A DNA stretch of 64,000 bases from Candidatus Poribacteria bacterium (GTDB lineage Bacteria > Poribacteria > WGA-4E > WGA-3G). The notes under the pieces were generated by a model that made no database searches, was not told the origin of the DNA, and saw only the letters and a list, made by a program, of their open reading frames with translations. Shown here piece by piece: positions 2,343 through 64,000 of the stretch. The translations under genes and the position numbers were made by a program. The DNA lies in contig JAJEAG010000098.1 in assembly GCA_022824265.1 (NCBI GenBank), positions 1 through 64,000 of the forward strand, in the 5' to 3' direction. Within the stretch, counting starts at the first letter, position 1, and each line of letters opens with the position of its first letter.

Positions 2343-3113
2343 ATGAATAAAATTCTATTTTTTCTAATTCTCGGTCTCTTAGTTATTTCTCCTCAACTGA
2401 TGGCACTTGACACAAACGGCTTAGTCGGAGCGTGGCTAATGGACGATAAAGGAGATACAGTATCTGATTCTTCTGAAAACGGTTTGGATGGAAATATAGC
2501 AAGAGGAAATCCGAAATGGGTTGATGGTAAATTTGGCGGTGCTATGCAATTTGGCGGGGCAGATATGGTGACGGTCGCCGATGATGCAGCACTTGATCTC
2601 AAGTCTTTTACACTCTCAGCGTGGGTTAATATCCCGAAAATTACAAATGTATGGCAAATTATCGCTTCAAAAGAAAACCGAGGACCAACAGGTCGTAACT
2701 ACGGAATATTCGGTCATGTCAACAACGGTAAAATACATTATTCCTTCACAACCGCGAATGGTTGGAAATCTTTTGATGCAAATACTGTTGTCTCTAATGG
2801 TGAATGGCACCACATTGTTGCAACTTATGAAAAACCAGATTTCAAACTTTATGTAAACGGCAATGTTGATGCACAGGTTGCCCCAAATACCGATCCGGAT
2901 AACCATGATAATTTCCTTTTCATCGGAGGATGCGATATCGGTAATTATTGGATGACTGGATCTATTGATGAAGTCGTCCTCTATGACAGAGCTCTTGATG
3001 CGGCAGATATAAAAACTCTCATGAATAATAGTTTTACCGATGCTCTTGATGTGCAACCGGGTGGAAAACTGGTTACAACATGGAGCAAAATTAAGCGGAA
3101 ATCTTCATATTAG
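2343..3113 (+). CDS. Secreted LamG-domain protein with C-terminal KLxTTW tag (copy 1)
   Basis: A 256-residue exported protein. The signal peptide covers residues 1-21 (two Leu/Ile-rich blocks, cleavage after LMA). Residues about 25-225 form one LamG / concanavalin-A-like jelly roll: GLVGAWLMDD start, ADMVTVADDAALDL, FTLSAWVNIP, GEWHHIVATYE and the family ending IDEVVLYDRAL. Such domains usually bind glycans or mediate adhesion; no ligand can be read from sequence. The last residues, DVQPGGKLVTTWSKIK plus a short basic tail, match a motif shared with four other secreted proteins here. The AAAGGA ribosome site precedes the ATG. The next gene is a close paralogue of identical length, so this is a tandem duplication. 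Confidence 0.88.
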   Translation: MNKILFFLILGLLVISPQLMALDTNGLVGAWLMDDKGDTVSDSSENGLDGNIARGNPKWVDGKFGGAMQFGGADMVTVADDAALDLKSFTLSAWVNIPKITNVWQIIASKENRGPTGRNYGIFGHVNNGKIHYSFTTANGWKSFDANTVVSNGEWHHIVATYEKPDFKLYVNGNVDAQVAPNTDPDNHDNFLFIGGCDIGNYWMTGSIDEVVLYDRALDAADIKTLMNNSFTDALDVQPGGKLVTTWSKIKRKSSY

Positions 3114-3246: not shown

Positions 3247-4017
3247 ATGAATAAATTTTCACTCATAGTAATATTAACACTACTTGCCATTACACCAAAT
3301 CTCATGGCTGTTACAACTGACGGACTTGTTGGAGCTTGGACGTTTGAGGACGGTTCAGGTGATAAGGTAATGGATTCCTCTGGAAACGATTTACATGGGG
3401 AAGTCACATTAGGTAATCCCAGCTGGGTCGATGGTAAATTTGGCAGTGCCTTGGAGTTTGGTGGTTCAGATATGGTTACTGTTGCTGATGCCGATGCTCT
3501 TGACCTAACATCTTTTACTATTGCAGCATGGATTAATAGTCCGAGAACATCAGGAAGGTGGCATGTTATCGCTGCAAAAGAAGCTCGTAATCCAACAGGA
3601 CGTAACTACGGTATCTTCGGTCATGTGAATACAGGTGTTATCCACTATTCCTTTACCTCAGGTGGTTGGAAATCCTATGATGCAAATACAAATGTTACGG
3701 ATGGTGCTTGGCATCATGTCGCAGCCACTTATTCCAAACCAGATTTTAAACTCTATATTGATGGTGAAGTGGACGCTGAAGTTGCACCGGATGCTGATCC
3801 TGAAAGCAACACCAGTCCTCTATATATCGGTGGATGTGACATCGGTAATTACTGGATGACAGGTGCTATTGATGAGGTAGTCCTATATGACAGGGCACTG
3901 AGCTCGGACGAAATCGCTGAACTCATTGCTGATGGAATTGCATCCGTAACGCCAGTTGAACCTGCTGATAAGTTGGTGACGACTTGGAGCAGAATTAAAT
4001 CAAAGGCAACAAAGTAA
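3247..4017 (+). CDS. Secreted LamG-domain protein with C-terminal KLxTTW tag (copy 2)
   Basis: Close paralogue of the gene just upstream, also 256 residues, with the same order: signal peptide (cleavage after LMA near residue 21), one LamG domain to about residue 228, then VEPADKLVTTWSRIK and a basic end. Several blocks are identical between the copies, such as NPTGRNYGIFGHVN versus GPTGRNYGIFGHVN, and DIGNYWMTG. The start at 3247 is chosen over an in-frame ATG at 3169 because AAAAGGAG lies just upstream and only this start gives a proper signal peptide. A hairpin follows at 4075. Probable surface or extracellular glycan-binding protein; substrate unknown. Confidence 0.88.
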   Translation: MNKFSLIVILTLLAITPNLMAVTTDGLVGAWTFEDGSGDKVMDSSGNDLHGEVTLGNPSWVDGKFGSALEFGGSDMVTVADADALDLTSFTIAAWINSPRTSGRWHVIAAKEARNPTGRNYGIFGHVNTGVIHYSFTSGGWKSYDANTNVTDGAWHHVAATYSKPDFKLYIDGEVDAEVAPDADPESNTSPLYIGGCDIGNYWMTGAIDEVVLYDRALSSDEIAELIADGIASVTPVEPADKLVTTWSRIKSKATK

Positions 4018-6415: not shown

Positions 6416-8056
6416 CTATTTTTCTTTTATATATAGAACCTGATTTGCGGGTGTGTTTTCAACGATCTGAATTGACCCACTAACCCAACGTACTTCAATC
6501 TTATCAACATTTTTGTGATTACCAAGACCGAAATGCATTTTTAATTCTCGTTGTGAAAGATAACCGTCACCACTCTGTATTTCACGTATTTGAGACAAAT
6601 CTCCTGCGGTTATCTTAACACGTGTTCCGATTGCATCCGATGAGGTATTTGTAGCTTTCAATTTAATCTGTAGCCAGTTGTTCCTGTTTCCTCCATCATT
6701 ACGTAATAGACGTGGAGGTGTATTGGAATTGGTCACAAGAATATCAATATCTCCATCTAAATCGTAATCCGCGAAAGTAGCACCACGACTTACATCTTCA
6801 AGAAGCATACCAGGTCCAAGAGATTGGGATATTTCAGTGAAAGTGCCATCTTGCATATTTTGAAAAAGCATGTTGCGTTGTTCATAGGTCCCTTCCTGTC
6901 CCAGTTCTTTCAGATTGTCATGCAGATGTCCATTAGCTACAAAAACATCTCCATATCCATCATTATCTATGTCAACAAATGCTGTTGCCCAACCAACATA
7001 CGGATATGTTATCTTTGCTGTTTTTGTTGTTGATGTTAAATCCGTAAAAAACCCGTCACCGTCATTATGGTAGAATGTATTAGTTTGTTCTGTGTAGTTA
7101 GTAACGGTCAAATCAATCCACCCATCGTTATCCCAATCACCAAACGCTGTACCCATACCGTTTTCTACAACACCGTTTTCACTTAGAGCTACTCCAATCA
7201 TAAACCCTATTTCTGTGAACTCACCGTTCCCTAAATTCCGATAGAATAAATTTTCCGTGGAATCGTTAGCTACATAAATATCGGTATATCCGTCATTGTT
7301 GTAGTCTCCCCATGCAACCCCCAAACCTTTACCGTTAGGATTAAAGATACCTGTTGCCTTTGTAACATCCGTAAAAGTCCCATCACCGTTATTTCGGTAT
7401 AGCACATCGGATTGTGCTACGAAGTTGTCTGGTTTACAATATGCTCGTATTCCTTTCTCTTTTAGTCCACACCACGGATTTTCCTCATCAAGCGAGAAAA
7501 CGATATAATTGACAACATAAAGGTCAATGTTACCATCTTTATCGTAATCAGCGAATGAACAGCCGGTGCTCCAACGCGGTTCAGTAACACCTGCTTCTTC
7601 TGTCACATCAGTAAATGTGCCATTACCATTATTTCGGTAGAGACGATTTTTGCCGAAATTAGTAATGTAAAGGTCCAGGTTGCCATCGTTATTGTAGTCC
7701 GCTACAGCACCCCCATGTCCATACCCATCGTCTCCCACTCCAGCTATCTGTGTTACATCAGTGAAAGTTCCATCACCATTGTTTTGATACAGACAGTTGA
7801 TGGGAATTTCTGTCATATTGTAACCGGGTAGAGGTGCCCCGTTGATCAAATATAGATCCGGATCATCATCAGAGTCATAATCGAAAAATACAGCACCTGA
7901 ACCGAGTATCTCCATTGGGAATTTATGACCACTCCGTCCATCTACGTGTGTCCAGTGAATTCCAGCTTCGTAGGTTACGTCAACGAATTGAACTCCGTTC
8001 CCAAAGGTATTAGGTAGAGGTAGCAAGATTAGTGTAATCAGTAGAAATTTATACAT
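6416..8056 (-). CDS. CRTAC1-type FG-GAP/VCBS repeat protein with ASPIC/UnbV domain
   Basis: A 546-residue exported protein with signal peptide in residues 1-20. Multiple FG-GAP/VCBS blade repeats fill most of the chain, each with a D-x-D-x-D-G calcium-binding-like loop (DYNNDGNLDLYITN, DYDKDGNIDLYVVN, DYNNDGYTDIYVAN, DWDNDGWIDLTVTN, DIDNDGYGDVFVAN, DYDLDGDIDILVTN), predicting an integrin-like beta propeller. The last 90 residues are the ASPIC/UnbV domain (WLQIKLKAT, GTRVKI, HFGLGNH, EVRWVSG). Last gene of a five-gene operon, 43 bp after the TPR gene. CRTAC1/TPR pairs recur in environmental bacteria; function unknown, probably surface binding. Confidence 0.9.
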   Translation of the reverse strand: MYKFLLITLILLPLPNTFGNGVQFVDVTYEAGIHWTHVDGRSGHKFPMEILGSGAVFFDYDSDDDPDLYLINGAPLPGYNMTEIPINCLYQNNGDGTFTDVTQIAGVGDDGYGHGGAVADYNNDGNLDLYITNFGKNRLYRNNGNGTFTDVTEEAGVTEPRWSTGCSFADYDKDGNIDLYVVNYIVFSLDEENPWCGLKEKGIRAYCKPDNFVAQSDVLYRNNGDGTFTDVTKATGIFNPNGKGLGVAWGDYNNDGYTDIYVANDSTENLFYRNLGNGEFTEIGFMIGVALSENGVVENGMGTAFGDWDNDGWIDLTVTNYTEQTNTFYHNDGDGFFTDLTSTTKTAKITYPYVGWATAFVDIDNDGYGDVFVANGHLHDNLKELGQEGTYEQRNMLFQNMQDGTFTEISQSLGPGMLLEDVSRGATFADYDLDGDIDILVTNSNTPPRLLRNDGGNRNNWLQIKLKATNTSSDAIGTRVKITAGDLSQIREIQSGDGYLSQRELKMHFGLGNHKNVDKIEVRWVSGSIQIVENTPANQVLYIKEK

Positions 8057-8099: not shown

Positions 8100-9740
8100 C
8101 TATTTTTCTTTGATTTTCGTTAAGGTCTGTCGCAATGTTGATCTTTTGGGATCCATCCTAATGGCAGCATTTATAGCGTTTAATGCCTTTTCATGTTCCC
8201 CCGCATGATGGTAAGCTAAGGCAAGTGTTTCCAAGTATTGAGGGGTAGGGACTAACTTAACTGCTTTTTCAGACAATGTAATTATATCCTGCGGGTTAAC
8301 ATTATCAGGAAGTTGTGAGGTTAAGGTTTGTTGTGATTTCGATATAACATCAAGGTAAAGTCTTGCTAATCCATTTAATGCGTAATGTGCTTCACTGTCT
8401 AAGGTTAATGTTTCCTGATATGCCAGAAGTGCTTTGCTAATTTCACCACGGTGGTGATGTATTGATGCAATTCTACCTTTGGCTATTGCCAACGACGGAT
8501 CGTATTTTAAGGATGTGGAATATTCAGCAAATGCTTCATCAAATCGTCCCTGATAATGGTAAACCGCTCCTAATCCAGCGTGAAGCACCGCTTGTTTAGG
8601 TTCAACGGCAAGTCCTTCAAGATAAGACTGTTCTGATTCTTTTAGTCTGTTTGACCTAAAGTATAATTGCCCAAGTTTATAATGTGCTGCTGTGTATTTG
8701 GGATTTATTTGTATTGCTACTAAAAACGCATCAATTGCTTCATCAAATTTCTTATATTTTTCATAAGTAAGTCCCAGTTGGTAGTGTTTCAGTGGGTTGC
8801 TCGGTTCAATAATAATTGCCTGTTCACGATTGTCAATTTCTCGCGCAATATTGTTTAAGTGCTGATATGTTGCCATAGCCTTAGTGCCTTCTTCAACCTG
8901 TTTCAGTCTAAACAGTGCTTGGGCAAGATTGTAATAGGCACCTATATGGTCTGACTGTTGGGTAATAACAGTTCGGAAAATATCAGCGGCACGTTGATAT
9001 TCTCGCTTTTTTGTGTGGACTAAACCGAGACTATAATGCGCTGCAGTAAAATTGGGATCAAACTTTACCGCTTTTTCCAAATACAGAAGAGCTTTATCAA
9101 GGTCTCCTTGCTGTAGATAGATCGCGCCCAAGTTACCATTAGCCATAGTTAGTTCTGGCTTGATGGTTAAAGCACGTTTGTAGTAGTGAATTGCTTGGTC
9201 CAGTTGTTGAATTGATTCATAACAGGAGGCGAGATTTGTAATTGCTTCAGCAAGATTCGGAGATATGCTTAGACTCGTCTGATAGGTATCAATTGCTTTC
9301 TGAAACTGGTTATCATGCTGATAGGCATAAGCAAGACCAAGCCATACGTTAACAACATTAGGATATTTTGTGGTTAGTGTATGGTAGAGTTCAATTGCCT
9401 TGTCAAACCGAGAAGATTTTGTGTAGAGAAGGGCAAGATTTGTTTCAACTTGTAACAATCCTGGAGATAATTGCAGCGCATGTTTAAGGGAGGTTTCAGC
9501 CTTGTTGTATTCACCAAGGTGGAGGTGTATTGTACCTAATGCAGCGTGTGCTTTAGCGAAATTTGGATTATGTTCAATGGATTTCTGAAAACTTTGTAGT
9601 GCTTTTGCATATTCACCTTTACGAACTTCCTGCATACCACGCGTATAAAAATCTATTGAAATTTGCGATGAATGAACAGAAACATTGCCACAAAAATAAA
9701 GGCAAAGAATAATAACAAACGAGTGACGTTTTAACAACAT
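8100..9740 (-). CDS. Exported TPR-repeat protein
   Basis: A 546-residue protein of about 13-14 consecutive 34-residue tetratricopeptide repeats with the usual A-x-x-x-Y/G-x-A-x-x-x-P spacing (for example YKRALTIKPELTMANGNLGAIYLQQGDLDKALLYLEKAV split across repeats). The start at 9740 gives a hydrophobic signal sequence (LLKRHSFVIILCLYFCG), follows GAGGA, and sits 5 nt after the upstream stop; a start at 9776 would overlap that gene. TPR superhelices are protein-binding scaffolds, so this is likely a periplasmic or surface partner of the neighbouring CRTAC1 and SUMF1-type proteins. No enzymatic domain seen. Confidence 0.9.
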   Translation of the reverse strand: MLLKRHSFVIILCLYFCGNVSVHSSQISIDFYTRGMQEVRKGEYAKALQSFQKSIEHNPNFAKAHAALGTIHLHLGEYNKAETSLKHALQLSPGLLQVETNLALLYTKSSRFDKAIELYHTLTTKYPNVVNVWLGLAYAYQHDNQFQKAIDTYQTSLSISPNLAEAITNLASCYESIQQLDQAIHYYKRALTIKPELTMANGNLGAIYLQQGDLDKALLYLEKAVKFDPNFTAAHYSLGLVHTKKREYQRAADIFRTVITQQSDHIGAYYNLAQALFRLKQVEEGTKAMATYQHLNNIAREIDNREQAIIIEPSNPLKHYQLGLTYEKYKKFDEAIDAFLVAIQINPKYTAAHYKLGQLYFRSNRLKESEQSYLEGLAVEPKQAVLHAGLGAVYHYQGRFDEAFAEYSTSLKYDPSLAIAKGRIASIHHHRGEISKALLAYQETLTLDSEAHYALNGLARLYLDVISKSQQTLTSQLPDNVNPQDIITLSEKAVKLVPTPQYLETLALAYHHAGEHEKALNAINAAIRMDPKRSTLRQTLTKIKEK

Positions 9741-9745
9741 GGCAA

Positions 9746-10615
9746 TCAGTCCTCGGAAGGAGTGTCCATTACACAACGAAAGCCACGTAAGAGTGAACCA
9801 GGGTTACCACCAAATCGATTTGCACATCGTGTGAAATCTAAATTTTCTGCCCATCCACCACCTTTGAGAACATGACCGTCGCCTGTTTCTGGTCCCATAG
9901 GATTAGCATTCGGAGCGTAATCATAATAATCTGGATCATACAAGTCAGAAACCCATTCCCATAGGTTACCCGCCATATCATGAGCACCATAGGGACTTGC
10001 TCCTTGTGGAAATTGTCCAATTGGAGCAGTTAATTTATAGCCGTCAATTAATCCAGTACCATCATTTCCACTAAGTTTTGTAGCATCCCACTCATTACCC
10101 CAGGGCCAGATGCGTCCATCTGTCCCGCGTGCAGCTTTTTCCCATTCTGCCTCAGTCGGTAATCTTTTCCCTGCCCAATTTGCGTAAGCGACAGCATCTG
10201 TCCATTCTAATACTACAGCAGGCAGGTCTGCATCGTTATGAGGCGGATAATCTAAATATTTATTGGGTTTGTATCCGGTATCTGTTAGAAACTGTTTGAA
10301 TTGTTTATTGGTGACCTCAAATTGATCAATGTAGAATGCATCTAAGTATACTGTCCGTTGTGGACGTTCATTGTCAAATCGGGAGATGTTTCTGAGTGGA
10401 AATATTTCTTTATAATACTCTATATCAGCATCGCTGGTACCCATTAAAAAATCACCTGCTGGAACAAAAACCATTACACTTCCATCTTTAGGTGAGGTAA
10501 TGGTCTTTACAGGTGATGGTTTAACAGGTTGTGAATCCATTCTCTCACCACATGCAAAGACAAGTAGTAAGAGAATGGAATGAATAACAATGAAACAAAA
10601 TTGCTTATGTTTCAT
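9746..10615 (-). CDS. FGE-sulfatase (SUMF1)-fold lipoprotein lacking the catalytic cysteines
   Basis: A 289-residue lipoprotein with lipobox LVFAC (Cys22). Residues about 46-285 are a complete formylglycine-generating-enzyme/SUMF1 fold: MVFVPAGDFLMGT, DAFYIDQFEVTNKQF, RLPTEAEWEKAARG, PWGNEWD, DMAGNLWEWVSD, VLKGGGW and GFRCV. True FGE carries two copper-binding cysteines two and seven residues after the Trp of GGSW; here those positions are Glu257 and Thr262. It therefore should not activate sulfatases and more likely acts as a binding or structural domain, as in many bacterial SUMF1 proteins. The gene lies 5 nt from both operon neighbours. Confidence 0.9.
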   Translation of the reverse strand: MKHKQFCFIVIHSILLLLVFACGERMDSQPVKPSPVKTITSPKDGSVMVFVPAGDFLMGTSDADIEYYKEIFPLRNISRFDNERPQRTVYLDAFYIDQFEVTNKQFKQFLTDTGYKPNKYLDYPPHNDADLPAVVLEWTDAVAYANWAGKRLPTEAEWEKAARGTDGRIWPWGNEWDATKLSGNDGTGLIDGYKLTAPIGQFPQGASPYGAHDMAGNLWEWVSDLYDPDYYDYAPNANPMGPETGDGHVLKGGGWAENLDFTRCANRFGGNPGSLLRGFRCVMDTPSED

Positions 10616-10620
10616 TAACT

Positions 10621-11427
10621 TTATCTAACTGCTTTCAAGTCACCCCAGGTTGTTGATAACTTTCCTTCAGGTTGAACTGCGGTAGCATTTGCCATGAGCC
10701 AGATGATAATTTCAGCAGCGACTGCACCTTTTGGTTCATCACCGTTTGCAGTCTGTATAACTGGAATCAATCTACCGCGGTCTCCATCTCGCACAATAAT
10801 TGGGTCAGCACGTGTACCCGCTTCATTTTGTGCAAGTGATACCTCTACTTCCCAATTATCAGCAAGTTGATCAATGTGGAAGGGACGGTCAGATTGGAAT
10901 TCTGGTAGACTTGGAGCAATCTCTTTTCCTTTCTCAGTCACTATCATCGGTGTATTATCATCCCACATGACGATACCAGGAATATCCATCATATTTTCTA
11001 ACCCACCGACTTCATTGCGTGCTTGTAATCCCCAGAACATATAATCAGCGTGGTTGATGAATGCATCACCGTCTGTCGTTTCAATGAACAATTCCGCAAT
11101 GGAACCGTCAGGTTGTGTGTTGCCTTGTGGATAAATAGTTGGTGGTAAATCACCATATAACACACAGATATCCAAACCGTTGTCACCAGACACATCTTCC
11201 ATCCAACTCGCAACAGCGTCCATATCGCCATCACTATCATACAAAGTATTTTTAATACCTGCATCATTTAGCATGTCAATACAGATTTGTGCCTGCGCGT
11301 CTGCGGCATCCTTACTAATCCATTGAACAGTACCAGTGTAGATAATCACTTCACCTGCAGCAAACACTTGTGTAACGGGTAGTGCTAATAAAGCAATTAA
11401 CGTCGTGAAAATAACGACATTTCTCAT
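10621..11427 (-). CDS. Secreted protein of unnamed family with KLxTTW tag (copy B)
   Basis: A 268-residue exported protein with signal peptide ending near AFA (residue 23). The mature part shows an alternating alpha/beta pattern (VIIYTGTVQWIS, ICVLYGDLPPTIYPQGN, LIPVIQTANGDEPKGAV) that could be a ThuA/glutamine-amidotransferase-like Rossmann fold, but I see no catalytic triad, so I give no function. It ends AVQPEGKLSTTWGDLK, the tag shared with the LamG proteins. A close paralogue lies 4 nt upstream; shared blocks include YPQGN, FWGLQARNE and MMDIPGIV. Second gene of the five-gene operon. Confidence 0.85.
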   Translation of the reverse strand: MRNVVIFTTLIALLALPVTQVFAAGEVIIYTGTVQWISKDAADAQAQICIDMLNDAGIKNTLYDSDGDMDAVASWMEDVSGDNGLDICVLYGDLPPTIYPQGNTQPDGSIAELFIETTDGDAFINHADYMFWGLQARNEVGGLENMMDIPGIVMWDDNTPMIVTEKGKEIAPSLPEFQSDRPFHIDQLADNWEVEVSLAQNEAGTRADPIIVRDGDRGRLIPVIQTANGDEPKGAVAAEIIIWLMANATAVQPEGKLSTTWGDLKAVR

Positions 11428-11431
11428 TAAT

Positions 11432-12256
11432 TTACCTCCTTGATTTTATATCACCCCATAATGTGGGGAGTTTATTTGCGGGGTCAACCGCTTGAGCACC
11501 TACAGCTTCAATATAGTAATTCAGAATAATCTCGGCGAACACTTCACCCTTCGGATCATCTTGATTTGCAGTCTGATATACTTGGATGAGTCGTGCTTCG
11601 GTTTTTGTATTTCGAAGAATACATGGATCACACCGAGTTGATCCTTTTGCTTCTCCGGTATTTGTTGCAAAGGCAATTTCCAATTCCCAATCATTTGCTA
11701 ATTGGTCAACGTGGAAAGGACGATCAACCGCGTAATCTTTGAGCGTTGGTGTGAATTCCTTTCCTTCAGGTGTGACCTTCATTGGGGTATCGTCATCCCA
11801 TTGTACAATTCCAGGGATATCCATCATATTTTGGAGTCCACCGGCTTCATTGCGTGCTTGTAGTCCCCAGAAAAAATAATCAGCAGTATTAGCAAAAGTG
11901 TTTCCTGCATCAAGGAACTCCTCGGCAACAGAACCGTCAGGTTTAGCATTACCTTGAGGGTAAATTACAGGTGGAATATCACCAAACAAGACAATAATAT
12001 GATTTTCCTTTTTCTTAGTATGATTTTTTGTCCATTCTTCTAATGCGCCGGCACCCTCATTAACTACCTCACCGATGCCATTTTTTCCCGTGATCATATC
12101 AATCAGAATATCAGCCTCAGCTTGTGCAGCTGCTTGACCAATCCACTGTGTAGTCTCTGTGTAAACGAAAACATCCACTTGAGCATCAGCGTTAGGTATA
12201 CAGAACATTATCGCAATAGTGCACAAAACGCATATAACAGTAATAACAATCTTCAT
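11432..12256 (-). CDS. Secreted protein of unnamed family with KLxTLW tag (copy A)
   Basis: First gene of the operon, 274 residues, paralogue of the next gene. Signal peptide in residues 1-25 (cleavage after ADA). Shared blocks with its partner are IPPVIYPQGN, DYFFWGLQARNE, MMDIPGIVQWDD, DRPFHVDQLA and QTANQDDPKGEV. It has an extra Cys pair (RCDPC) absent from the partner. The C-terminus AVDPANKLPTLWGDIK is a slightly diverged form of the common tag (T-L-W for T-T-W). A strong AGGAGG site precedes the ATG by about 10 nt. Function unknown; a possible ThuA-like fold is only a weak impression. Confidence 0.85.
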   Translation of the reverse strand: MKIVITVICVLCTIAIMFCIPNADAQVDVFVYTETTQWIGQAAAQAEADILIDMITGKNGIGEVVNEGAGALEEWTKNHTKKKENHIIVLFGDIPPVIYPQGNAKPDGSVAEEFLDAGNTFANTADYFFWGLQARNEAGGLQNMMDIPGIVQWDDDTPMKVTPEGKEFTPTLKDYAVDRPFHVDQLANDWELEIAFATNTGEAKGSTRCDPCILRNTKTEARLIQVYQTANQDDPKGEVFAEIILNYYIEAVGAQAVDPANKLPTLWGDIKSRR

Positions 12257-20999: not shown

Positions 21000-21788
21000 T
21001 TATTTCGTTTTGATCCGTGCCCATGTTGTGGTTAACTTGCCTTGTGGAAGGACATCTGCAACTGGATTTTCCATATCCATCATGAGTTCGTCTTGAGTTA
21101 ACGCATAGTCATATATCTTGATTTCATCAAGTGCACCATTGACAAAACGTTGGTTTCCACCTCGAGCACCAATATAAAGTGGTTCATTGTTAGCGGTTAG
21201 TTTACCCTTACATTCCAATTCTTTATTGAGTTCCCCATCAATATACAATTTGATTGTGGTACCATCCCATGTTCCTGCAAGAAAGCGCCATGTTTCATCC
21301 TGTATACTGTCACCAATATTATGTTCGCGGCAATTATCTGGCAGATCAAAGAATTGAAGTAACGACCCACCGCGGTACCATGCTGCAAGCGTAAACAGTC
21401 CAGCTTTCCATGTATTACCTTTTTCAACACCTGTCTGAACATCTGAACCAGGACCACCAGCACTCGCCTTGATATTTGCCCAGAATTGAACCGTAATGCC
21501 ATCAACAACATGGAGGCTATCGTCATCTTCGACTTCACCCCATGATGCACCATCTAACTCTATCGCTTTTCCAAACTTTCCATCGACTAATTTATGTTTA
21601 CCATTGAATTCTGCATCATTACCATAGTCAGACAAATCAGGTGCTACGTCCCCATTTAATTCATCAAAGGATAGGTGCAGGATAAGGTCATCAGCCGAAC
21701 ATATACCAGTCAACAAAACAGTTCCGAAGAGGATAATGTACATTCCAACACAAGTAAAAAAACTATATCTTTTCGTCCAAAAGTTCAT
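21000..21788 (-). CDS. Secreted LamG-domain protein with C-terminal KLTTTW tag (copy 3)
   Basis: A 262-residue exported protein with a hydrophobic segment near 10-30 (cleavage near CSA). Residues about 33-240 form a LamG jelly roll (LILHLSFDELNGD, KAIELDGASWGEVED, ITVQFWANIK, WRFLAGTWDGTTIKLYIDG, LDEIKIYDYALTQDEL). It is more distant from the 2.3-4.0 kb pair, and yet it ends with the same tag, DVLPQGKLTTTWARIK. First gene of a unit with the cyclophilin pair. Binding target unknown. Confidence 0.88.
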   Translation of the reverse strand: MNFWTKRYSFFTCVGMYIILFGTVLLTGICSADDLILHLSFDELNGDVAPDLSDYGNDAEFNGKHKLVDGKFGKAIELDGASWGEVEDDDSLHVVDGITVQFWANIKASAGGPGSDVQTGVEKGNTWKAGLFTLAAWYRGGSLLQFFDLPDNCREHNIGDSIQDETWRFLAGTWDGTTIKLYIDGELNKELECKGKLTANNEPLYIGARGGNQRFVNGALDEIKIYDYALTQDELMMDMENPVADVLPQGKLTTTWARIKTK

Positions 21789-44515: not shown

Positions 44516-45877
44516 ATGAAAATGAATACGTTCCAATTTACGATTTTTCTGATATTCGTTGCAATCATCAGTTCATATACATCTTTAGCAAATCAATCAA
44601 TAGAGACAGACCAACCAAATGACATTGAAATATTAAGATCTTTTGAAAATGCAATTTCTAAAATCGTTGAACAAAGTAAACCTGCGGTTGTCAGTATAAG
44701 TGTAATTAAGGATGAAAAAAAGGATGGTAAGATAATCGAGACATCGGGAGGTGGTTCCGGTTTTATTATTCGAAATGATGGCTACATCCTAACCAACGAA
44801 CATGTTGTACGTGGATCAAAAAAGATCACTGTTAGTTTGTTTAATGGCAGAGAACATGATGCAAGTTTGATTGGTGATGATCAAAACAGTGATATAGCAG
44901 TCTTGAAAATAGATACACTCAAACCACTTCCTGTTCTCAAATTCGCGGATGCGACAAAGGTCCGTGTCGGACAATTTGCTATCGCGATAGGCGATCCAAA
45001 AGGATTTAAGCTTACAGTGACTGCTGGAATAGTCGGTGGAAAAAACCGCTGTTTTCACGAAAAAAACAATCTTTATCAGTATCATCACACCTACATTCAA
45101 ACAGATGCTTGGATCAACCCTGGCAGTAGCGGTGGTCCCTTACTGAATATACAAGGCGAAGTTATCGGTGTAACTGCATTAAACCCGGGTGAAGGTTCAA
45201 CATTAGCTGTTGAATGTGATCTTGCCAACAAAATAAGTAATCAACTGATAACACATGGTAGAATAATCCGTGGACACATTGATGCTGGAATGCAAGATGT
45301 TGCACAAGGTATAAAACTAACAAGGGTTAAACGGAACACTTCTGCATTGAAGTGCGGATTAAAACAGAATGACATCATTGTTGAATTTGATGGGGAAAAG
45401 GTAGCAGGCGTAAACGATTTTGAACTGCATGTTATGGGTTGTCAGATCGGGCAACAATACCCAATCAAGGTATTACGACAAGAACAGGAAATTACACTCA
45501 ATCTGACTATTGATGAGATGCGACCTGAATTAGTTGGACGGTCTGTGAATACTGATTCAGTTTCTTGGAAGACAATTGGATTATCCACACGAAAGTTGGA
45601 ATATAATAATTATCAAAGATATGCATATTTGAATGAAGATGATCAAGGTCTTATCGTTGAAAGAATAAAAAGAAATTCTCCCAGTTACGAAGCAAAAATA
45701 CCACGTGGAGCACTCATCACTGCTGTCAATGAACATAAAATAGAAGATGTTCATACCCTTGAAACATACTTGGATAATGAAAAAGATATTTCAGAAATAA
45801 CTCTGGATATTAAAGGTATCCAGGGTACAGAAAAAGTCATGCTCAAATTGCAGGACAGTCAACTGACACCTCAATAA
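44516..45877 (+). CDS. HtrA-like periplasmic serine protease with two PDZ domains (copy 1)
   Basis: A 453-residue trypsin-like protease: signal peptide at 1-26, catalytic triad His96 (TNEHVV), Asp126 (NSDIAVLKID) and Ser205 (NPGSSGGPLL), then PDZ1 (about 258-345) and PDZ2 (about 350-445). This is the DegP/DegQ order, acting in quality control of envelope proteins. Activation loop LA is short. Unlike copy 2 there is no lipobox, so this one should be soluble in the periplasm. It has several extra Cys residues (C179, C234, C284?) not found in DegP. Preceded by a good promoter and followed by a hairpin before its paralogue. Confidence 0.93.
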   Translation: MKMNTFQFTIFLIFVAIISSYTSLANQSIETDQPNDIEILRSFENAISKIVEQSKPAVVSISVIKDEKKDGKIIETSGGGSGFIIRNDGYILTNEHVVRGSKKITVSLFNGREHDASLIGDDQNSDIAVLKIDTLKPLPVLKFADATKVRVGQFAIAIGDPKGFKLTVTAGIVGGKNRCFHEKNNLYQYHHTYIQTDAWINPGSSGGPLLNIQGEVIGVTALNPGEGSTLAVECDLANKISNQLITHGRIIRGHIDAGMQDVAQGIKLTRVKRNTSALKCGLKQNDIIVEFDGEKVAGVNDFELHVMGCQIGQQYPIKVLRQEQEITLNLTIDEMRPELVGRSVNTDSVSWKTIGLSTRKLEYNNYQRYAYLNEDDQGLIVERIKRNSPSYEAKIPRGALITAVNEHKIEDVHTLETYLDNEKDISEITLDIKGIQGTEKVMLKLQDSQLTPQ

Positions 45878-50800: not shown

Positions 50801-52987
50801 TTATCTGAGAATACCTAAATTACCGGTCTCACGTATGACTGAATCTGCTTGTGTTGCTGCGATATGGTAAATATATATACCGGAGGAAAGCGGAGTGCCA
50901 TGTTGATTTTTACCATCCCACAGAAATTTACCAGATGCCAAAACCTCCTGCTGGGTTTTACTAAAAATCTTCTCACCATTAATAGTAAAAATATCAAGTG
51001 TGACACTATCCGCTGATTGAGATGCGGGGAGTTGATATGTAAAGGTGATTCCAGATGATGAAGGTCGCATAGGATTTGGATAAACCTGTGTATGTATTTT
51101 TGCGAACGGTTCAGGATCAAGCTGCTCTACTAACAATTTGTAGGACTCAACACTGCTGAATTCACCATCTGAAGTCACCTCAAGATACAATGTCTGTCTT
51201 GTAGCGGGTTGATAAAGAATTTGGTATCCAATCAAATCTGCAGCTTTTTCACCCATTCCTAATATCTCACCTGTATCTGTCAGAAGGTGCAAACTGTAAT
51301 TAATGTGCTCTGGAAATTCCGATAATGTGGCGCGGATCGTTATACCGCCGGCAGCTTCAAATCGATAAAGGTCTTGGAGATCAGATGCGTCATATAGGAA
51401 GGAGTAATAGGGTTGATTGTAAAAAATTGGGAATGCTGTTCCAATGGTGTTGTTCGGTTCATAGGTATCACCGAAAGAGACTAACATCTGCATCGTTAGA
51501 CCTTCAGCACTTATATTGGTAATAGAAATACCAGAAGGTGTGCCATCACTTGAACTACTGTTCGGCAAAGTTCCGGGTGTGAAACCAGTTTGGTTATCGT
51601 TCGCAGAATAGGCTGCACCATCAGTGACAAGATCAATGTCTATGAAGCCAGGATCATCCGGATGAATACCGATATGTTCAGGATCATTGGGGTCTTCAAG
51701 CCAAATCTGAAAAGCAGCATCAAAACTACCAAGACGTCGGACCTGTGTCTCATCAATATGCCAGATGAGAATACCTGATTCTGGAAGATATGTGTCAAAG
51801 GTTGCTCCTGAGTTTTTATATCGGTTCTCAATAAGGAAAAATTCTCTGTTTATTACATCGGTAGGCAAATCAGAATCACTACCAAAGGTAGTAAAAACCC
51901 TCCGTGTTAGTGGAATATCAATTTTGAAGAGTTTGTCTGTTTTAGATGGCAGTTCAAAACATGGGACGGTAATTTGTCCAGACTTCGTGATTGTTACAGG
52001 TTCAATCCAACCAACACGTCCATTTTCAGGACGTGCATCAAAATCCCATTTCAAATATCCAATAATATGACTGGGTTCTAAGCCGTTTCCTATGGTTATA
52101 TTAACGGGTCCCTGATAGGGACCGAATGCCCCCATTAAACCCCATTTATGGTCACGTGCGTCTGTAAAGTTTGACCCATAAACATCTGGTGCGCCAAAAT
52201 CGTGGAAGAATTCATGGAAGTATATACCTAAATGTGGTTTATCAAAATCAGGTTCTTCAGCAACAACAATTGCAGTGTCAACTCTTACCCCGTCAAGGGT
52301 TAGGTTGACATTTGGTGTTAAGATAGACCATATATCATATTCTGGATCAACTTCATTAATTTCCTTGCTGGACGCTTCGTCATTACCAGCATGTATAATG
52401 AAAAGGTGGTCAACGATTCCATCTTTATCACGGTCGTATTTTGAAAAATCGACAGTTGCATCTACCGCACGACATGCCTCTCTAATTAGCTCATGATATC
52501 GTGGTACATTAATCTGTCCTTCACCATAATAACGCATCGGTTTCTGAGCCCGTATCCATTTATTACCTTCTGGTAAAACACCTCCAACGGGTCCCGGTTG
52601 TACATCCATTTGTCCATAGGAATTTTCGCGGAAATAAGTTTTTAGTGACACACCTTCTTCAGCAAATAGATATTCATTAAACTCTGCGCTACTTCTTTTA
52701 CCCGGTTGATCACTGAAATCAATTTTGAGAGCAAGCACATATTCAATCCCATCAGGTTGTAATACACTGAGTTCCCTTGCATTACAACATCCATCTAATG
52801 CTTCAAGATAGTTTGAAAGACCGAGTTCAGAACTTTGTCCTGGAGAAGTTTTAGGGGACATTTTACCTGTGTTAGGATCAATGTCAAAATATAGGTAAGG
52901 ATTAGGAGGAGCTGCATAGCAGAATGCTGTAACCACAAGGAAACACGCGATACATGCTACACGTAAAGCAGAAACTATGTTAATCAA
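50801..52987 (-). CDS. Secreted M6-family (immune inhibitor A-like) metalloprotease
   Basis: About 728 residues: hydrophobic signal region (SALRVACIACFLVVTAFCYA), propeptide, then the M6 catalytic domain (RENSYGQMDVQPGPV, zinc motif HEFFHDFGAPDVYG, HExxH-type, and GLMGAFG). The middle is beta-rich and the end (YPNPMRPSSSGITFTYQL, then WDGKNQHGTPLSSGIYIY) is the FlgD-like/T9SS-type-A-like module. The start is uncertain: the frame is open to 53119, overlapping the upstream gene by 140 bp. I chose a TTG at 52987, which overlaps its stop by 8 bp, keeps the signal peptide, and has a weak GGTGGTGA before it; the ATG at 53044 is the alternative. Confidence 0.88.
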   Translation of the reverse strand: MINIVSALRVACIACFLVVTAFCYAAPPNPYLYFDIDPNTGKMSPKTSPGQSSELGLSNYLEALDGCCNARELSVLQPDGIEYVLALKIDFSDQPGKRSSAEFNEYLFAEEGVSLKTYFRENSYGQMDVQPGPVGGVLPEGNKWIRAQKPMRYYGEGQINVPRYHELIREACRAVDATVDFSKYDRDKDGIVDHLFIIHAGNDEASSKEINEVDPEYDIWSILTPNVNLTLDGVRVDTAIVVAEEPDFDKPHLGIYFHEFFHDFGAPDVYGSNFTDARDHKWGLMGAFGPYQGPVNITIGNGLEPSHIIGYLKWDFDARPENGRVGWIEPVTITKSGQITVPCFELPSKTDKLFKIDIPLTRRVFTTFGSDSDLPTDVINREFFLIENRYKNSGATFDTYLPESGILIWHIDETQVRRLGSFDAAFQIWLEDPNDPEHIGIHPDDPGFIDIDLVTDGAAYSANDNQTGFTPGTLPNSSSSDGTPSGISITNISAEGLTMQMLVSFGDTYEPNNTIGTAFPIFYNQPYYSFLYDASDLQDLYRFEAAGGITIRATLSEFPEHINYSLHLLTDTGEILGMGEKAADLIGYQILYQPATRQTLYLEVTSDGEFSSVESYKLLVEQLDPEPFAKIHTQVYPNPMRPSSSGITFTYQLPASQSADSVTLDIFTINGEKIFSKTQQEVLASGKFLWDGKNQHGTPLSSGIYIYHIAATQADSVIRETGNLGILR

Positions 52988-54308
52988 ATTCACCACCACA
53001 TTTTCTGCATAAGATGTAGAATTGAATGTCGTCAGAATGGGCATGTTGTTTGATGAGATCAACAGCTTGATCAGGCAGTTCTTCTTCACATTTTTGACAT
53101 TTATAGAGTGATCCTTCATGTTCAGGAAATTTTCTTATGTCACCCCAAATATCGTTGAGCCAGTATTTAAATTCCCACGGAAATTCAGTTTCAACTGCCT
53201 TTGATATCTCAACTGCATGGCTAATTAATTTTCTGCACTCCTCAAATGTGGCAGGTTCATAGGGGTGTGGTTGTGTAAGCGTAGGTATCGGTTTACCTTC
53301 AGCAGCATTTTCAGGATTGTATCGTCGAGAACGTGTTAGCAAAATTTGGTCTAACCGTGTACCCGGTTCTCTACCCTTTGACCATACACGGTAATATCCT
53401 GGACGTTTGACCCTAAAGTAACCCGGTTCTGACTTGCCGAGTGGGTGCGTTGAAGTATCCCAAAGCCAACGATTCCATTTGGAGTCGTCCCCCGGAACTG
53501 CCCATACTTTGATTGCATTGGGTCCGCCCTGTTCGTCCCACGGATACGGTTCAACATCTTCAATGCCAACCCAGTATGAGTCTTGACTCCCCGACTTATA
53601 GTATGTCCGAATCCACACGTACCATTTTCCTCTTTTAGGTATATAGACTTCATAAATAGCACGCGCATTTCTCGCGCTATCAATTGCCCTTCTGTTGGAA
53701 GCTTCTTCGTCTTCCACAACATTCACACCATTGTCAAAATGCATCGCAGTTTCCGCTTCAATGATAAGTGTGTCCCTTGGGATGCGAATAAATTCCTGTT
53801 TTTTATCTTTTACTTCACGTTCGCGTTCTTGCTCTATTTCCTCTTTTTCTTCTTCTGGTATTGCGTGTTCCGGTTCAGTGTAACTATTTCCGAACCTTTG
53901 ACATGCCCGTTCAAATTGCTTTTCGGACATGTTTGCATCGTAGAAACAGTCTCGGACACCTTTTTTCCAAAGGTCAATCAGCAGGAACATCGCCTTTAAA
54001 TTTCCATCAGGACGTTTACGCGTGCCAACAATAATTAGCATACCTGTATCTCGTGAACGACTGACAAGGCATAGGTGAATGGGATATTCAGGTGAGGCAA
54101 CTTTTCTGCTTTGAACGATGAGGGGACTATAATATTTGCATCGGTTATCGCATCCAGGGATTTTTGCCCGTTTAGCACTACAACATTCTGGACAAATAAT
54201 CATACTACTAAGGGCAGGGCATGCCCGTTTACCATTATTGGAACGGCATGTACGACACCTTTGTGTTTTGATACGTTTCTGTCTGGTAGGAAGTCTCTGA
54301 TGGCGCAT
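52980..54308 (-). CDS. Zinc-ribbon / jelly-roll fusion protein of unknown function
   Basis: A 442-residue protein without signal peptide. Order: N-terminal Cys-rich basic domain (C18, C21, C30, C39, C42, C43, C53, C57); residues about 70-135 with LIIVGTRKRPDGN and FLLIDLWKKGVRDCFYD, resembling the VVxARxxPNG..FVLVDLxxLGVKD module of SEC-C-type proteins; an acidic Glu-rich coiled segment (145-175); a CBM6/35-like jelly roll (TLIIEAETAMHF...YWVGIEDVEPYPW...GYYRVWSKG); and a C-terminal zinc ribbon (C-x2-C ... C-x2-C). Combining a cytosolic-type zinc module with a carbohydrate-binding-like fold is unusual. Function unknown; overlaps the M6 gene region downstream. Confidence 0.82.
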   Translation of the reverse strand: MRHQRLPTRQKRIKTQRCRTCRSNNGKRACPALSSMIICPECCSAKRAKIPGCDNRCKYYSPLIVQSRKVASPEYPIHLCLVSRSRDTGMLIIVGTRKRPDGNLKAMFLLIDLWKKGVRDCFYDANMSEKQFERACQRFGNSYTEPEHAIPEEEKEEIEQEREREVKDKKQEFIRIPRDTLIIEAETAMHFDNGVNVVEDEEASNRRAIDSARNARAIYEVYIPKRGKWYVWIRTYYKSGSQDSYWVGIEDVEPYPWDEQGGPNAIKVWAVPGDDSKWNRWLWDTSTHPLGKSEPGYFRVKRPGYYRVWSKGREPGTRLDQILLTRSRRYNPENAAEGKPIPTLTQPHPYEPATFEECRKLISHAVEISKAVETEFPWEFKYWLNDIWGDIRKFPEHEGSLYKCQKCEEELPDQAVDLIKQHAHSDDIQFYILCRKCGGEFD

Positions 54309-62760: not shown

Positions 62761-63915
62761 TTAAAAATCTTGTCCTATTGAAAAAGCGTAAACAGAAGTG
62801 CCTTGAACAATGTGAATTCTTTCGTCTTCAGCCACAGTCGGTGTAAACTGCGGGGTATAAGCAGCATTAAGTGCTATGTTTCCAAACTTTACACCAATTC
62901 CTACGCAGAGACCTTCTGCTTTCCAAGTTCTTTCTTCCATCATATAGTCCGCATCTTCTAATAGATATACTGAATCATATCGTTTTTCGGTATCCCTGAG
63001 ATATCCGATTCTACCGCCTATACGGTTATTGTACCATATTTCAACGCCAAGGTTTGTTCGGATACCATCGCTAAATGGTGGATGTATATCCAAACCGAGA
63101 CGTATCATAGTGTTTGAATAATCCAGTTGATATGCAAAACCTGCAATAACATCACGGTTTATTTTATCTGGAATGAAAGGATCTATGAATGACAATCCGT
63201 TACTTAGATTTCGAACGACAACACCTGCATGAAAAGACTTGCCAAATTGTTGAATGAGACCAATATTATATGCGTAACCACGACCAAAATGTTCCTTATT
63301 AATTGTATCAGTCACCTTAGAACGTACCCACCTTGCATCAAATCCAACAGTAGTACCACCAAAGAGATTAATTGCATATCCGATTCCAAAAGCAAGGTTA
63401 TTTTCGGGAAAACTGTTGAGGGCTTTTCCTTCATGGTTAACACGTCGAAAACTACCTTCATGAACTAAGGATAATGCAGCACCGATTGTTCCGTATCTTC
63501 CTATTGGGAATGCCCAATTAAGTGTTTCAATACCAGATGCTCGTTGTTCAAAACGGCTATAATCCTCATAGTCGGCATCAAAATTCGGTTTCGAAAGAAG
63601 GGCAATAGTACGGGGGAAACGGGTCATGTGGACTACAAACTGATCTCCATCTGCAGCAATAATTCCTGCGGGATTGTTACCGAGCGCATTTGCTCCACCA
63701 GTAGCACCAACAAAACTACCACCCATTCCACGATGATCAGCACCGTGTAATTGTTTGAGAAACCTGTCTGCATCTGCCGTTAGGCGCACATCTGATGCAA
63801 CTGTAGTTGGTATGAAACAAAAAAGAATTAGATAGAATATACAAAATGACGATAGAATATATTTACTATTGATATTCAATGCATAAATGAGAGAACAATC
63901 TATTTTTCTGTTCAC
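62761..63915 (-). CDS. Outer-membrane beta-barrel protein (PorV/OmpP1-like)
   Basis: A 384-residue exported barrel protein: hydrophobic signal (SSFCIFYLILFCFIP, cleavage near TVA), mature N-terminus with DHRGMGGSFVGATGGANALGNNPAGI split as GMGGSFVGATG and NALGNNPAGI, as in PorV/OmpP1-like proteins, then alternating amphipathic strands and a terminal Phe (GQDF), the barrel assembly signal. Start chosen at GTG 63915, since GGAG lies 8 nt upstream; the frame is open to 63981 at the window edge. Substrate or partner unknown. Confidence 0.82.
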   Translation of the reverse strand: MNRKIDCSLIYALNINSKYILSSFCIFYLILFCFIPTTVASDVRLTADADRFLKQLHGADHRGMGGSFVGATGGANALGNNPAGIIAADGDQFVVHMTRFPRTIALLSKPNFDADYEDYSRFEQRASGIETLNWAFPIGRYGTIGAALSLVHEGSFRRVNHEGKALNSFPENNLAFGIGYAINLFGGTTVGFDARWVRSKVTDTINKEHFGRGYAYNIGLIQQFGKSFHAGVVVRNLSNGLSFIDPFIPDKINRDVIAGFAYQLDYSNTMIRLGLDIHPPFSDGIRTNLGVEIWYNNRIGGRIGYLRDTEKRYDSVYLLEDADYMMEERTWKAEGLCVGIGVKFGNIALNAAYTPQFTPTVAEDERIHIVQGTSVYAFSIGQDF

Positions 63916-64000
63916 TTTTCTTACTCCAAGACCTATGTAGGTCATTGTATACTTGAATGGAAGTGTGAATTTATGTGTCAATGTATGTGTTTGTGGGGTG

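Follow-up and report, generated by a model that had tools for sequence, protein, structure and literature searches.

A short tryptophan-centred C-terminal tag on secreted proteins of the phylum Poribacteria, apparently an undescribed sorting signal

PEP-CTERM and GlyGly-CTERM signals are built of a motif, then a transmembrane helix, then a basic patch, and the cargo peptides of encapsulins and microcompartments are short C-terminal stretches carried by unrelated cytosolic proteins. The MYXO-CTERM layout is again motif, transmembrane helix and basic patch (PMC11980579). Short signals are also on record for the T9SS: the last 22 residues of Hbp35 are reported to be required for T9SS secretion and attachment of GFP (as cited in PMC11969387), and Prevotella intermedia has short CTDs of 43–55 aa (PMC11969387). 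A 2014 single-cell study described Por-type CTDs in Poribacteria and found none of the structural secretion genes (PMC3909097).

Here we compare with these systems an ending shared by five secreted proteins in a 64 000-nucleotide stretch of poribacterial DNA (the window; coordinates refer to it unless another locus is named). A preliminary description had placed the ending on two unrelated protein families and had explained it as a sorting, export or anchoring tag with processing machinery of its own. All five proteins and their endings were confirmed in the sequence:

2343–3113, + strand: secreted LamG protein (ConA-like lectin fold) with a signal peptide, tag carrier (Laminin_G_3, E=2.3e-28)
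3051–3110, + strand: its C-terminal tag, VQPGGKLVTTWSKIKRKSSY (from sequence; profile E=3.4e-12, top of 121 matches)
3247–4017, + strand: second secreted LamG protein, tag carrier (Laminin_G_3, E=2.8e-29)
3955–4014, + strand: its C-terminal tag, VEPADKLVTTWSRIKSKATK (from sequence; profile E=1.1e-11)
10621–11427, − strand: secreted protein whose family has no name (cluster 4), tag carrier (no Pfam or NCBIfam match)
10624–10677, − strand: its C-terminal tag, VQPEGKLSTTWGDLKAVR (from sequence; profile E=7e-12)
11432–12256, − strand: secreted paralogue of the protein at 10621–11427, tag carrier (from sequence and clustering)
11435–11488, − strand: its C-terminal tag, VDPANKLPTLWGDIKSRR (from sequence; profile E=7.8e-12)
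21000–21788, − strand: third secreted LamG protein, tag carrier (Laminin_G_3, E=1.2e-23)
21003–21053, − strand: its C-terminal tag, VLPQGKLTTTWARIKTK (from sequence; profile E=2.8e-11)

The core of the five tails aligns without gaps, with invariant V, P, K, L, T, W and K. The two carrier families are indeed unrelated: three bodies match Laminin_G_3 (E 1e-23 to 3e-29), and Pfam and NCBIfam scans gave the pair at 10621 and 11432 no family at all; no model of either collection lies over the tail. Body clustering groups the protein at 10621–11427 with proteins of two other loci (L068 and L106) that are likewise tagged. The AlphaFold model of the LamG protein at 2343–3113 (pLDDT 89) has jelly-roll matches in the PDB; its tail is drawn apart from the body as a low-confidence helix (pLDDT ∼56–67), with no strand. 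An amphipathic helix, as suggested by this tail, is not supported: its hydrophobic moment is no better than chance, and the test favoured neither helix nor strand. Other secreted proteins of the window are without the tag (an FG-GAP protein at 6416, a TPR protein at 8100 and a DegQ-like protein at 44516), as are its lipoproteins (e.g. those at 9746, 19804, 20426, 28536, 31152, 40673, 45989 and 49533). Two neighboring leucine-rich-repeat lipoproteins, of 867 and 466 aa, lie between 28536 and 32552.

We built a search profile from the five window tails and ran it against the whole genome (4.45 Mb in 100 contigs, 97% complete), which gave 121 matches, 79 of them with an E-value of ∼7e-4 or better. 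The DNA around the matches was re-read in six frames, yielding 122 ORFs (120 without duplicates), and in all 122 the tag ends 0–13 residues before the stop codon; other records, poribacterial with few exceptions, add 178 tags, none of them farther than 12 residues from the stop. Internal occurrence had been named beforehand as one observation that would speak against a tag; in these 122 ORFs and 178 further tags the motif never lies outside the last ∼25 residues. Given 121 genome-wide matches and so strict a position, the motif is not due to chance. Counted as a plain DNA pattern, K-L-x-T-x-W shows no enrichment relative to a reversed control (66+38 versus 52+52), so that we use the profile and the position as evidence instead.

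The consensus of the 120 tails is x-[LT]-[APSD]-V-[ED]-[PA]-x-[GDN]-K-L-[TA]-T-T-W-[GA]-x-[LI]-K, followed by 1–14 residues that are usually basic. The tryptophan is present in 120 out of 120 tails, as is a lysine or arginine at +4; K at −5 is found in 117, V at −10 in 109 and P or A at −8 in 107. Net charge C-terminal of the tryptophan averages ∼+1.9, and the V-[ED]-P linker keeps a constant distance from the tag core. The GxY motif is absent from these ∼20-residue tails, and the hydrophobicity of the last 40 residues gave only one marginal case of a transmembrane helix after the tag (1 out of 120).

The bodies of the tagged proteins, after removal of signal peptide and tail, fall into 21 clusters (BLASTP and phmmer) with at least 11 Pfam folds. 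The largest cluster is LamG with 68 members; the others include PD40 and LDLR-B propellers, RhaB_D2/PA14, CBM9, CBM4_9, NPCBM (an NPCBM-carrying tagged protein has a HEXXH-like HELAH site), DUF4960, HmuY, LTD, F5/8C-like and GH43_C2/DUF1349-like proteins, and several without any family. A shared larger domain as the source of the motif is excluded by the clustering and by Pfam. On contig 4 of genome G000 (L004 and L094), at least five tagged propeller proteins of the LDLR-B (YWTD) type are encoded in tandem. Most tagged proteins are small (200–400 aa). A Sec signal peptide is detectable in 111 out of 120, so the carriers are exported and not cytosolic, and none of these 111 signal peptides has a lipobox cysteine. 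Out of the nine without a detected signal peptide, three run off the edge of a contig or locus, three look signal-like by eye, two are short fragments (truncated or frameshifted) and one is undecided.

Within the LamG family, the tag ends every one of the 62 short proteins that the genome encodes (under ∼320 aa; at locus L253 the ending, ...SGKIAVTWGELKVR, was assigned by eye alone), and no tag match was found in the five long ones (open frames of 646–1510 aa). When 30 LamG proteins are aligned (∼25–35% identity), the invariant columns are four tag positions (V, K, W and K) together with a single tryptophan of the lectin domain; with nearly all invariant columns in the tag, conservation is higher there than in the domain before it.

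The preliminary description had proposed a search of related genomes, and this finds the tag throughout the phylum, on secreted proteins: it is present in 85 out of 85 Poribacteria genomes (22 genera in 10 families), with 24 to more than 100 copies per genome, where at most 108 candidates were scored in each. A stringent DNA pattern run over named genomes gave records labelled Poribacteria in 77 out of 80 cases among the matches listed. Records labelled Pseudomonadota, Planctomycetota and Deltaproteobacteria contain four, two and one tags per whole genome, respectively, and out of 294 genomes from the phylum to which the Planctomycetota-labelled record belongs, 292 have no tag (the other two have two matches each); we read the tags in records labelled as other phyla as binning contamination or transfer. 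For example, locus L154 (JAPPIL010000222.1, labelled Pseudomonadota, from a 1.9-Mb genome with four tags) encodes two secreted proteins (342 and 396 aa) that bear the tag and by eye resemble trypsin, and may reflect contamination, mislabelling or transfer. On the evidence of sequence we conclude that Poribacteria as a phylum have a genuine C-terminal sorting tag in this ∼20-residue ending; strict C-terminal position, signal peptides and independence of fold support the original explanation as a tag well, its processing machinery being conjectural. What is established is the class of tag; its function and receptor are inferred.

A search for a co-occurring transpeptidase or secretion gene had also been suggested. 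Sortase (PF04203) is found in 0 out of 85 Poribacteria genomes (and in three out of 14 controls); a divergent set of SprA, PorV/PorQ and PorU-like proteins is present. The features concerned are as follows:

62764–63945, − strand: PorV/PorQ-family outer-membrane protein, untagged, candidate shuttle (NF033709 PorV_fam, E=7.8e-24, 84.8 bits versus a cut-off of 90)
50801–53119, − strand: secreted M6 metalloprotease that ends in a CTD of the FlgD/Por type (Peptidase_M6, E=1.4e-11; FlgD_ig, E=1.9e-7)
L236:3316–9780 (G000 contig 14): divergent SprA/Sov-like translocon, 2155 aa (five matching stretches, E=4.8e-39)
L258:5156–11629: PorU-like C25 sortase, 2158 aa, with its own FlgD/Por-type CTD at the end (E=1.3e-111, 374 bits versus a cut-off of 420)

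The SprA model matches 84 out of 85 Poribacteria genomes and none of the 14 controls; all matches but that of a single genome score under the curated cut-off (133 bits versus a cut-off of 200 bits in the genome of the window). The top three PDB matches of a structure model of an SprA fragment (residues 1060–1600; a modest model, pLDDT 65, TM-score 0.25) are the SprA structures 8gl6, 8gl8 and 6h3i; plain sequence searches of the PDB with the SprA and PorV proteins gave no match. PorV/PorQ-family proteins are found above the curated cut-off in 85 out of 85 genomes, with ∼15 per genome, and a C25 peptidase is found in 40 out of 40 relatives. GldM was found in 0 out of 40 genomes by a search that was also blank in the controls. 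Three of the ∼15 PorV-like neighborhoods were examined, and none has a tagged gene beside the PorV-like gene. At L266:823–4988 (C72), a PorV/PorQ-family gene adjoins one whose secreted product, 998 aa long, has a FlgD-like CTD and a weak match to the C-terminus of PorZ; the pair resembles a substrate and its shuttle.

Classical CTDs similar to Por_Secre_tail are encoded in 40 out of 40 genomes, with 27–82 per genome. The earlier statement that no T9SS C-terminal domain is present holds for the five carriers and fails for the window, because the M6 metalloprotease at 50801–53119 has one (TIGR04183 E=1.5e-4, slightly under the cut-off). Both classes of C-terminal signal, the tag and the FlgD/Por-type CTD, are thus found in one 64-kb window. 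The numbers of tags and CTDs vary independently (24 tags and 48 CTDs in genome G017, 106 tags and 35 CTDs in G000), as expected of two separate signal classes.

The SprA, PorV/PorQ, PorU-like and CTD proteins of the phylum lead us to infer that export or anchoring at the outer membrane has a second, minimal C-terminal signal in the tag. Our preferred reading, to which we give a probability of roughly 45%, is that the sorting tag is read at the outer membrane, likeliest by the divergent T9SS-like set, this last link being the conjectural one. Tagged proteins are made with a Sec signal peptide and without a lipobox, and would be delivered to the periplasm as soluble, non-lipidated proteins; the folded body bears the tag on a short linker that starts with V-E/D-P. 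Recognition of the tag at the outer membrane would then take the protein to the cell surface or outside. Among the genes seen, the likeliest reader would be the SprA-like pore with one of the ∼15 PorV/PorQ barrels as a shuttle, possibly with cleavage of the tag by the PorU-like protein. The tag would thus serve small proteins as a second, minimal signal, next to the classical Ig-like CTD of larger proteins.

Reading of the tag by the T9SS-like set draws on the presence of this machine in the phylum and on the precedents of the 22 residues of Hbp35 and the short CTDs of P. intermedia. Against it, we found no direct link of the tag to SprA, PorV or PorU, the tag has neither a CTD fold nor GxY, and AlphaFold draws its tail as a low-confidence helix and not as a strand. 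Since the tag, SprA, PorV and PorU are all near-universal in the phylum, their co-occurrence cannot discriminate, and the divergent T9SS-like set may or may not read the tag. We also put forward, tentatively, that the phylum has a sorting system of a new C-terminal class, in which the tryptophan-centred tag of ∼20 residues, with neither a helix anchor nor a beta-domain, has a receptor of its own and sends more than 100 small lectin- or propeller-type proteins per cell to the surface, in parallel to the divergent T9SS.

The main rival to reading by the T9SS-like set is retention through a non-covalent tag that has a receptor of its own. The basic, tryptophan-bearing tail would bind a component of the outer membrane, LPS, S-layer or scaffold, directly or through a dedicated receptor, and would hold small lectins and propellers at the surface after export by another, T9SS-independent route. 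We regard this as possible, if rather unlikely: an invariant tryptophan between invariant lysines with a basic end would suit such binding, many carriers have carbohydrate-binding folds of a surface-displayed kind, the proteins have neither a lipobox nor a transmembrane anchor, and the tail is modelled apart from a well-folded body, possibly as a short helix; but no receptor candidate was found, the hydrophobic moment lends an amphipathic helix no support over chance, and a classical surface route (T9SS-like) is present in the same cells.

It is improbable that the tag is instead cut near V-E-P by a transpeptidase of its own (of the LPXTG, PEP-CTERM or PorU type), with the mature end joined to a surface glycan. 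The constant distance of the V-[ED]-P linker from the core, the PorU-like C25 protease in the genome and the C25 peptidases in all 40 relatives would fit such cleavage, but no sortase occurs in the 85 genomes, and processing of the PEP-CTERM or MYXO-CTERM type is unlikely because the tail has no transmembrane helix. A periplasmic folding, chaperone or stability tag without a sorting role (e.g. one that blocks a tail-specific protease) would also be short, strictly C-terminal, basic at its end and independent of fold, but is very doubtful, as the tag occurs essentially in a single phylum, and there on small exported proteins of the binding type, not on periplasmic enzymes, and is absent from the other secreted window proteins (at 6416, 8100 and 44516).

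The preliminary description did not recognize the tag as described, and this stands: no Pfam or NCBIfam model covers it, and the motif letters occur in no paper of the literature searched, a scope outside which most subscription journals fall. The tag is apparently a new sorting signal, undescribed in the databases and papers searched. It defines a class of C-terminal signals without a transmembrane helix, a beta-sandwich or LPxTG; its carriers make up a very large class among the secreted proteins of this dominant, uncultivated phylum of sponge symbionts, and the tag allows such proteins to be listed from sequence. The divergent SprA, PorV/PorQ and PorU homologues partly answer the 2014 gap in structural genes (PMC3909097), and both signal classes are testable.

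Among known systems, a cargo peptide of the encapsulin or microcompartment type is rejected because the tagged proteins have Sec signal peptides and are not cytosolic, and a lipoprotein because a lipobox is found in 0 out of 111 signal peptides. LPXTG substrates of sortase similarly have a C-terminal motif followed by basic residues; the poribacterial proteins have no LPxTG and no membrane segment, and sortase is found in none of the 85 genomes. With MYXO-CTERM, PEP-CTERM and GlyGly-CTERM the tag shares its shortness, its C-terminal place on many exported proteins of one lineage and the basic patch at the very end, but it has no hydrophobic segment, and a tripartite tag of the PEP-CTERM or MYXO-CTERM kind is excluded by the missing transmembrane helix. 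The tag is not itself a T9SS type A/B CTD (TIGR04183, PF18962 or PF13585), as the tagged proteins scanned match no CTD family and have no GxY: it is only ∼20 residues long, with an invariant tryptophan and no Ig-like beta-sandwich, and the classical CTDs of Poribacteria are separate from it, on other, mostly longer proteins. It nevertheless resembles these CTDs in its place at the extreme C-terminus, in being carried by dozens of proteins per genome that differ in fold and are exported by Sec, in a conserved lysine close to the end, and in its occurrence in genomes that encode homologues of SprA, PorV/PorQ and PorU.
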